This document shows, piece by piece, positions 15,161 to 17,463 of a stretch of 64,000 nucleotides of DNA. The DNA is from SAR86 cluster bacterium REDSEA-S09_B4 (lineage in GTDB: Bacteria > Pseudomonadota > Gammaproteobacteria > Magnimaribacterales > Magnimaribacteraceae). Numbering within the stretch: the first letter of the stretch is position 1; each line of letters opens with the position of its first letter. A program made the translations under genes and the position numbers. The stretch covers positions 72,103 through 136,102 of the forward strand of contig LUQU01000001.1 of assembly GCA_001628005.1 (NCBI GenBank). The letters run 5' to 3'. The notes below the pieces were generated by a model. That model did no database searches. It was not told where the DNA came from and saw only the letters and a program-made list of their open reading frames with translations.

Positions 15161-15658
15161 TTAGAATTTAATTAAACTGAGTATTTTATTTAGACAAGAG
15201 TCAATTTCCCCTTTGTTTTGAACAATATAATCTGCATATTTCTGATACAGCCTCTCTCTCTCTTTGTAAGCCTCTTGAATAGTTTGATCTGATCTTTTAA
15301 GTAGGCCTCTTTCAGAAAAATCTGATATGCGAGCTGATATATCTTCATAAGGTACTTCAAGATATATCACCATCGAATTTTCTTTAATGTGCTCCATAGC
15401 GGCATCACAAAACACAGCACTACCTCCAGTGGCTAAAACAATCTGGTTAAATTGCACTGAAAGTAAAGCACCTTCTTCAATTTCTTTGAATTTTTTATTT
15501 CCATTCTCGTTCAGAATATTCTGTAAAGATTCACCATATTTTTTTTCAATAATTGAATCACTATCTACAAAATGAAAATTCAAGCGTTTAGCCAGTTTTT
15601 TCCCTATAGATGACTTACCTGCCCCTGCCATACCTATTAATGATATTGAATTATTCAT
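15161..15658 (-). CDS. aroK: Shikimate kinase
   Basis: Walker A GMAGAGKSSIGKKLA, FVDSDSIIEKKYGESLQNI, LATGGSAVF. Confidence 0.88.
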   Translation of the reverse strand: MNNSISLIGMAGAGKSSIGKKLAKRLNFHFVDSDSIIEKKYGESLQNILNENGNKKFKEIEEGALLSVQFNQIVLATGGSAVFCDAAMEHIKENSMVIYLEVPYEDISARISDFSERGLLKRSDQTIQEAYKERERLYQKYADYIVQNKGEIDSCLNKILSLIKF

Positions 15659-15729: not shown

Positions 15730-15805
15730 TGGTGGAGCTAGTCGGGATCGAACCGACGACCTCTTGCGTGCCACGCAAGTGCTCTCCCAGCTGAGCTATA
15801 GCCCC
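15730..15805 (-). tRNA. tRNA-Ala(GGC)
   Basis: Reverse complement GGGGCTATAGCTCAGCTGGGAGAGCACTTGCGTGGCACGCAAGAGGTCGTCGGTTCGATCCCGACTAGCTCCACCA folds as a cloverleaf; anticodon loop GTGGCAC gives GGC; CCA encoded. Confidence 0.95.
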
Positions 15806-15806
15806 A
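15767..15806 (-). repeat. 40-bp direct repeat, copy inside intact tRNA-Ala (att-like)
   Basis: cgtgccacgcaagtgctctcccagctgagctatagcccca, identical to 17075-17114. Confidence 0.95.
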
Positions 15807-15840
15807 CGAAACGTCATGATACTCCTTTAAGCTAAGAGAA

Positions 15841-16005
15841 ACAGATTGCCTGGTACTTACATTATTTGGGTATGCAGTAGGTGGCATGAATGGTTTTCAG
15901 TTACAAAATAAAGGCACAGAGATAGCAGAGGTTACAGGCCACTCAGAGTTTGATATTGGTAGAGCAGTTGGGATATTGAAGCAGGGAAATTTGGTTAGGG
16001 TTTAG
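15841..16005 (+). pseudogene. Possible decayed C-terminal ORF fragment inside the element
   Basis: Open frame TDCLVLTLFGYAVGGMNGFQLQNKGTEIAEVTGHSEFDIGRAVGILKQGNLVRV* with no good upstream start (in-frame TGA at 15817). Family not assigned; a tyrosine-recombinase C-terminus is only a weak possibility. Confidence 0.25.
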
Positions 16006-16513
16006 TTTTAGAAGCTAGCACAGATTCACTATCTACTAACCTTCTATGAATAGATCTCGTAGAAATAAAAACCTCAAAAACAAAAAATATTAAGGAAATA
16101 ATAAGTAGTACCATGCAAGTTATAAATAAGATGGCAATCAACAAAGAAAAGTCCTTTTCATATAAGTTCCCTACAAATAAAGAAACAATTACAAAGCATA
16201 CAAAGAGTGCACTTGCAGCACATGCACATATAGATGTATAAATTAATTTACTTCTATTAGTAAGCTTATTCCTCTCATCTTCAAGAACCTCTTTACCTTC
16301 CCCATGTATATTCACAAGCGCTTGCTGTAAAACTCGCATCCTATCCTTTATTCTCCCTAATCTTACTCCCAAAACGCTCAAGATAAGACCAACACCGGCT
16401 AGTAAAAATACTGGTGTAACAGCCATCTGCATACTTTCAGCTATTCTAATTGAGCCTTCTCCCCAAGCATTAGTCGCTAACAGTAGGCTTATGAGTAGGA
16501 GTAGTTTTTTCAT
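15995..16513 (-). CDS. DUF2721-like membrane protein
   Basis: AVTPVFLLAGVGLILSVLGVRLGRIKDR motif followed by further TM helices; characteristic of DUF2721. Confidence 0.75.
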   Translation of the reverse strand: MKKLLLLISLLLATNAWGEGSIRIAESMQMAVTPVFLLAGVGLILSVLGVRLGRIKDRMRVLQQALVNIHGEGKEVLEDERNKLTNRSKLIYTSICACAASALFVCFVIVSLFVGNLYEKDFSLLIAILFITCMVLLIISLIFFVFEVFISTRSIHRRLVDSESVLASKTKP

Positions 16514-16543
16514 AAATTCTATTTTTTATCCTGCTTACAAAAC

Positions 16544-16906
16544 TCAAATCAATTCTTTTAATTTATCTAGGCCTCTTTTTATAGGATTGTCTTTTTTCTT
16601 CCCTTCTTTTTCTTGCTTTTCTTCCTCTTTCTTCTTCTCTTCTGTTATTTCTTTTGCCTGCTCAATATCATCACTTTCATCGTGTTCAGTTGAAGTCAGT
16701 TCAACAAATAAACTATTTTGGGGAAAGGCACGAGGGGAATCTAAAGAAAAAGGAGTGGGGAAAAGAGTAGCAAAAGCATTTTTAGATACATCGTAAGCAG
16801 AAAGTATTTTCTCAACATCTCCTATCTTTTTAATTAAATCTTCGTCAGAAGCTGGTGCTCTTCTTTTTTTCATATGCCTTAAGTATACCCCAACAAAAGG
16901 GTACAA
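16544..16906 (-). CDS. Small highly charged hypothetical protein
   Basis: ORF ending ...EITEEKKKEEEKQEKEGKKKDNPIKRGLDKLKELI*; likely start at internal Met (MKKRRAPASDEDLIKK) at ~16873. Confidence 0.5.
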   Translation of the reverse strand: MYPFVGVYLRHMKKRRAPASDEDLIKKIGDVEKILSAYDVSKNAFATLFPTPFSLDSPRAFPQNSLFVELTSTEHDESDDIEQAKEITEEKKKEEEKQEKEGKKKDNPIKRGLDKLKELI

Positions 16907-16997
16907 AAGCTTTAAATCAGTTCTGTACCCTTCTGTCCCACCCCTATCCTTAGTGTTTTAAGAAATAGAGTTCTTGCGAAGAATAGTATCAAAATCT

Positions 16998-17033
16998 TGT
17001 ACATAGAATGTACACAGATCATTTTGTACACAG
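16998..17033. repeat. Cluster of three TGTACA motifs (two as TGTACACAG direct repeats)
   Basis: TGTACA at 16998-17003; TGTACACAG at 17009-17017 and 17025-17033. Confidence 0.7.
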
Positions 17034-17074
17034 TGAGATGTTGTTATAAAAGGATTCTATTAGCGACTACAATA

Positions 17075-17114
17075 CGTGCCACGCAAGTGCTCTCCCAGCT
17101 GAGCTATAGCCCCA
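17075..17114 (-). repeat. 40-bp direct repeat: truncated tRNA-Ala 5' half
   Basis: Same 40 bp as 15767-15806, with no 3' half (flanked on the left by aata). Confidence 0.95.
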
Positions 17115-17122
17115 ATCTAAAA

Positions 17123-17157
17123 CGCGAGTATTCTACCAGCCTTTCTTTAGCTTATAA
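17123..17157 (-). promoter_or_regulatory. Putative tRNA-type promoter upstream of the truncated tRNA half
   Basis: Minus strand TTATAA (17152-17157), 16-bp spacer, TAGAAT (17130-17135), GC-rich CGCG discriminator (17123-17126), then the tRNA 5' half. The -35 match is weak. Confidence 0.35.
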
Positions 17158-17170
17158 GAAACGTTATCCA

Positions 17171-17197
17171 TAAAAAAACAGAGCCGAGGCTCTGTTT
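17171..17197 (-). terminator. Intrinsic terminator reading on the minus strand
   Basis: ACAGAGCC/GGCTCTGT hairpin followed on the minus strand by a T-run (AAACAGAGCCTCGGCTCTGTTTTTTTA). Confidence 0.75.
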
Positions 17198-17463
17198 AGT
17201 TCGAGTTCGAAAGTGTCTAAGTTTGAGTCTTTTTTCTTAGCTCCCTTGATAAATTTCTCTTTTTATCTCGGTGGTCTAAAAGTCTTTTTTGCTAGCTTTT
17301 ACTTTTAGAGCTTTTCGCCTTTCGTTCTCTAACCTTTTTAACTCTCCTTTTCTCGTCTCGAGTTGGTTCCAGGTCGGTTAAATTGGTCTAGTGATATTAC
17401 TCTTATGGAAAAAAAATACAACCCTTTTTTTCAACTTTTTTTAAGTTTTTTTTGACTCCTTTT

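Follow-up and report, generated by a model that had tools for sequence, protein, structure and literature searches.

Islands integrated at transfer RNA (tRNA) genes have been surveyed by Islander, which counts 159 islands bounded by a 5′ fragment of the tRNA gene against 3760 bounded by a 3′ fragment (159/3919), and which discards candidates shorter than 2 kb or without an integrase (PMC4383910). The tRNA-targeted cassettes of marine additive flexible islands, from Ca. Actinomarinales (PMC7771536) and Alteromonas (PMC4119200), are a known parallel. Here we describe a 1268-bp insert with two cargo genes (15807-17074) in the single-copy tRNA-Ala(GGC) gene of SAR86 cluster bacterium REDSEA-S09_B4, within the 64,000-nucleotide stretch of contig LUQU01000001.1 that was analysed (the window). 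We consider it rather probable that this insert is a non-autonomous integrative element, derived from integrase-bearing parents, that entered the tRNA gene by site-specific recombination. At its length and without an integrase, it would be filtered by Islander on both counts.

The complete, restored tRNA-Ala(GGC) was called by ARAGORN at 15730..15805 on the minus strand (Rfam RF00005, 63.7 bits). A repeat search of the window returned a 40-nt family of two copies, 100% identical (40/40) and 1308 bp apart from start to start, comprising the tRNA 5′ half through the anticodon loop (position -1 to 39). One attachment (att) repeat copy lies within the complete tRNA (15767..15806, minus strand), and the other (17075..17114, minus strand), judged by its repeat identity and by the upstream alignment across genomes, is the displaced 5′ half of the original tRNA, standing behind the native -10 box; ARAGORN calls no tRNA at this second copy. 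Even with up to three mismatches allowed, these are the only copies in the draft assembly (1.67 Mb, 107 contigs), and an exact repeat of 40 nt is far beyond chance expectation. Between the copies, a Pfam search reveals no integrase; the cargo comprises a DUF2721 membrane protein with a signal-peptide-like N-terminus (15995..16513, minus strand; PF11026, E 8.7e-34) and a lysine/glutamate-rich open reading frame (ORF) of 109 amino acids (aa) (16544..16873, minus strand). These results bear out an earlier note on this DNA, which had described perfect 40-bp direct repeats 1308 bp apart, one in a complete tRNA and one truncated, around a ~1.3-kb interval with a DUF2721-like membrane protein, a small charged ORF and no recognisable intact integrase. 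That note did not remark on the rarity of the type, in which the 5′ half is duplicated and not, as usual, the 3′ half.

The locus was compared across 204 genomes of the order, the relatives being mostly draft metagenome assemblies in which several key loci stop at contig edges; G000 denotes the window's own genome, other G-numbers the genomes compared, C a contig and L a locus stretch. In G002, of the same genus, the 3′ end of the IMES-1 RNA is followed by a single tRNA-Ala and then by the shikimate kinase gene, an empty site, and the window flanks, fused without the insert, align to G002 through the junction over 423 bp at 88%. G003 is likewise empty, with IMES-1 and a single tRNA. In G008, of another genus, the locus is syntenic, with enoyl-CoA hydratase and glutamyl-tRNA synthetase as neighbours, and the half tRNA is followed by the same element end as in the window (96% over 142 bp), by a putative lipoprotein gene and by the end of the contig. 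A short contig of G001 presents a tandem case, in which a half tRNA separates the distal part of one element from the proximal end of a second. Over 16946..17074 the element end is 95-96% identical in G008 and ~79-84% in G001, beside a half tRNA in each, and an exact-pattern scan of the genome contigs found it only in these two genomes. Among the 204 genomes, two half copies close together were found in G000 and in just one other genome, G098, which belongs to another family; there an independent 497-bp insert carries one co-oriented 131-aa lipoprotein gene, whose end lies immediately before the complete tRNA. In G062 and G131, single half copies sit at the edges of contigs. The commoner 3′-type inserts are also present at tRNA-Ala(GGC), with 501 bp in G012 and 1946 bp in G100.

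Therefore, with an empty site in G002 and alternative cargo in G008, G001 and G098, the two things that the earlier note had proposed looking for in relatives, its claim of tRNA-directed integration is upheld, and site-specific insertion into tRNA-Ala is well supported. As in tRNA-targeted islands generally, a complete tRNA stands at one end and a co-oriented fragment at the other, and a relative retains the empty site. The same comparisons weigh on two simpler explanations. A chimeric join at the 40-nt repeat might be suspected in a draft assembly of 107 contigs with several related loci at contig edges, but both flanks match the G002 order of IMES-1, tRNA and shikimate kinase, and the junction between half tRNA and element end recurs in the separately assembled G008 and G001; we reject this artefact, which is scarcely credible. 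A partial tandem duplication of the tRNA, passively capturing nearby DNA without site-specific recombination, would accord with a duplication that covers only half of the tRNA and with an insert that has no integrase. However, the insert is not copied from neighbouring DNA, since its parts match dispersed places in other genomes, and the breakpoint falls at the anticodon loop, as for known integrases. The G002 empty site and the G008 and G001 junctions led us to reject plain duplication too, and the element end shared with another genus largely refutes it, leaving it highly improbable.

The insertion has a consequence for the promoter of the tRNA. The box TAGAAT (17130..17135, minus strand), putatively the -10 element of the original tRNA-Ala promoter according to the cross-genome alignment, precedes the single tRNA of G002 and G003 at a similar position, and in the window it now stands before the half tRNA. 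A promoter-like sequence common to G107 and G100 also precedes the half tRNA in G098. Therefore, the insertion parts the restored tRNA from its promoter. Cargo is co-oriented with the tRNA in all four of the tRNA-Ala 5′-type cases with readable cargo (G000, G008, G001 and G098), and the minus strand shows no terminator-like site from the half tRNA to the complete tRNA; a consensus promoter scan returned sites no more frequently than chance. Because the native -10 box stays before the displaced half and the cargo and tRNA run in the same direction, cargo and restored tRNA probably share one transcript, which is the simplest reading.

We propose that recombination would have taken place in the anticodon loop, most likely through a tyrosine integrase encoded elsewhere and presumably acting in trans. 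The incoming element would have carried its own tRNA 5′ half and thereby restored the tRNA, and the host's original 5′ half would have ended up at the opposite end of the insert, where the native tRNA promoter still precedes it. The 109-aa ORF, the DUF2721 gene and the restored tRNA would then probably be transcribed together from the tRNA promoter, from the promoter-like module P1 inside the insert, or from both.

Larger elements with the same geometry exist in these bacteria. The single contig of G029, a genome of the same family, holds a 6.6-kb element at tRNA-Val(TAC) (L096:7415-14066). Its two boundaries are a copy of the tRNA 5′ half, 50 nt long, and the complete tRNA, and an intact 473-aa tyrosine integrase adjoins the half tRNA. 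A PF00589 search of G000 yielded two Xer-like genes and one phage-type integrase, on contig C78 (L090), no other non-Xer integrase being found in G000; the contig begins inside sequence that reads as a tRNA 5′ half. The C78 and G029 elements are candidates for an autonomous element family of this order. A phrog_4756 protein is common to the two, and both lie beside tRNA 5′ halves.

On the minus strand, the insert reads from the half tRNA through a 129-bp end region, P1, the 109-aa ORF, the DUF2721 gene and a winged-helix-like piece on the opposite strand to the complete tRNA. The conserved element end (16946..17074, minus strand), recurring beside the half tRNAs of G008 and G001, holds three TGTACA boxes (16998, 17009 and 17025), candidate integrase arm sites; at least three were reached in 1 of 100000 mononucleotide shuffles. 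P1 (16871..16919, minus strand; TATACT at 16882-16887, ATG at 16871-16873), putatively a promoter, is found again before different genes in G003:C13, G003:C4 and G008:C10. The 109-aa ORF, with its frame intact, has a 90%-identical copy in another context in G005:C24. The winged-helix-like piece (15820..16005, plus strand), which the earlier note had overlooked, comprises the C-terminal 61 aa of a truncated gene broken at the tRNA and is 48% identical to a longer copy in G019. Neither it nor the 109-aa ORF has a match in the Pfam search, and its putative winged-helix assignment was judged from the sequence pattern, with a sub-threshold match to HTH_11 only. The last 48 nt of this gene form a block, here termed E (15958..16005, plus strand), copies of which trail unrelated cargo genes such as those for a glyoxalase-like protein, an aldo/keto reductase, DUF2721 and others. 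In G003:C4, an E block forms an in-frame fusion to the C-terminus of a DEAD-box helicase gene (L046:646-697), and 2 kb away a second unit of E and P1 lies behind an aldo/keto reductase gene.

The winged-helix-like gene also connects the window to integrase remnants at another tRNA. Integrase C-termini are kept directly before tRNA-Ser(TGA) in G003 (C5) and in G008. In G008, a winged-helix-like gene comes first, then an ORF, the integrase C-terminus and the tRNA; when its contigs C10 and C24 are joined where 55 nt overlap exactly, the winged-helix-like protein at this site is complete, at 56 aa. As the window piece is a truncated relative of a gene found with integrase remnants, the window element probably descends from integrase-bearing elements. 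It also has cargo modules in common with related elements.

These remnants also allow a history in which a larger integrase-bearing island lost its integrase and most of its genes in place, the 1.3-kb form never having moved as such. Integrase loss beside tRNAs does happen in these genomes, as the tRNA-Ser remnants indicate, and deletion bias probably acts on these small genomes. The truncation of the winged-helix-like gene right at the tRNA points to a deletion rather than to a compact mobile unit, and thus favours such shrinkage. This truncation tells against the element that we propose, and so do three further points: an integrase is linked to tRNA-Ala(GGC) in none of the genomes examined, no circular form was seen (metagenomes not having been searched), and co-transcription is only inferred. 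However, very small inserts have arisen independently more than once at tRNA-Ala(GGC), each with one or two ORFs intact (497 bp in G098, 501 bp in G012 and 1946 bp in G100). Moreover, the two 40-nt copies have stayed the same, even though drift could act freely on the displaced half, so stepwise shrinkage would have had little time. Both facts favour movement in small form. Of the two origins that the earlier note had offered, a satellite-like element mobilised in trans or a decayed island, we therefore regard decay in place as a serious possibility, though a less probable one than the entry of a small non-autonomous element.

Outside the insert, the flanks hold an IMES-1 RNA gene (17191..17383, minus strand; Rfam RF02034, 123 bits, E 3e-27), also overlooked in the earlier note, and a shikimate kinase-like gene (15161..15658, minus strand; PF01202, E 2.2e-38). 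IMES-1 is a structured marine RNA; it immediately precedes tRNA-Ala in both G000 and G003, as does its 3′ end in G002, and this recurrence provides a genome context for IMES-1, on which a literature search found nothing. Two other RNAs were observed near related loci. An IMES-5 RNA (RF02995) lies ~3 kb from tRNA-Ser(TGA) in two genera (L056:4616-4765 in G008:C24 and L092:4218-4367 in G003:C5), and a possible structured RNA with a terminator-like end, which matches no Rfam family at gathering score, precedes the half tRNA directly in G001:C135 (L010:1060-1190).

DUF2721, which figures in the literature in work on Shewanella formate tolerance, is present in 17 of the 204 genomes. A copy in G003:C13 stands directly behind E and P1, unlike the window arrangement, and the ratio of nonsynonymous to synonymous change (pN/pS) between the two copies is ~0.11, which indicates that the gene is kept by purifying selection although its contexts differ. 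With G000, G003 and G001 set aside, 14 DUF2721 loci were examined, and 11 have a tRNA within ~1.5 kb (8 Ala-TGC, 2 Ala-GGC and 1 Ser); the eight Ala-TGC cases, all in one genus, may be a single event. In G137:C15 (L147:4977-6252), an island runs from a tRNA-Ser 5′ half through a DUF2721 gene to a complete second tRNA-Ala(GGC), the other tRNA-Ala of that genome being on contig C9. In G093:C2 (L220:1378-2071), DUF2721 lies directly 3′ of tRNA-Ala(GGC) and is followed by what appears by eye to be a decayed tRNA 3′ half, possibly an old single-gene insert of the 3′ type. Searches with DUF2721 gave no match in phage records and only distant matches in plasmids (<36% identity), and thus identified no phage or plasmid carrier.

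The layout of the insert resembles that of integron cassettes, with a host promoter upstream, co-oriented units of promoter plus gene, and a short repeated end block, E. In this order, tRNA-Ala(GGC) could even serve as an integron-like capture site, where single-gene cassettes enter the anticodon loop by recombination through an integrase acting in trans, the tRNA promoter drives the cargo and the tRNA depends on read-through. We consider this unlikely; if it were true, the restored single-copy tRNA would need read-through of the cassette, which would tie the cassette to host survival. The differences from integron cassettes are that E belongs to a winged-helix-like gene, as its 3′ end, and that no integron integrase was found in or near the insert (PF00589 search of G000), and membership of the integrons was rejected on both grounds. 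Inserts of this kind are not frequent at every tRNA: when ~8 kb on either side of tRNAs was surveyed, in the complete genome G029 and for the majority of tRNAs in G015, the tRNA-Val element was the sole case.

Among described systems, the 5′-fragment islands of Islander share the geometry of the window, in that the tRNA is likewise restored, the displaced 5′ fragment lies upstream in the same orientation and the crossover is at the anticodon. Islander, however, asks for a tyrosine integrase in autonomous islands, and since the insert has none, we file it as a non-autonomous variant and not as a full island. With its thresholds of an integrase and at least 2 kb, that survey misses one- or two-gene inserts, which, if common in the small-genome bacteria of the ocean, would be a way for abundant marine cells to gain genes on a small scale. 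Compared with the cassettes of the additive flexible islands (PMC7771536; PMC4119200), the window insert duplicates the 5′ half and, instead of extending a large island, stands as a minimal unit of two genes. Tycheposons, tRNA-linked cargo transposons as described in PMC10872708, are likewise elements of marine bacterioplankton with a tRNA border and, in full elements, a tyrosine recombinase, but they span 4-200 kb, whereas the window element, at 1.3 kb and without a recombinase, falls outside that description. The 5′-half geometry raises the question of how a needed tRNA is expressed with foreign genes between it and its promoter. In the pTN3-like elements (PMC8371274), the restored tRNA is likewise severed from its original promoter; those elements are archaeal and integrase-bearing, and the integrase promoter drives the tRNA, whereas in the window a cargo promoter, the native tRNA promoter, or both would do so.
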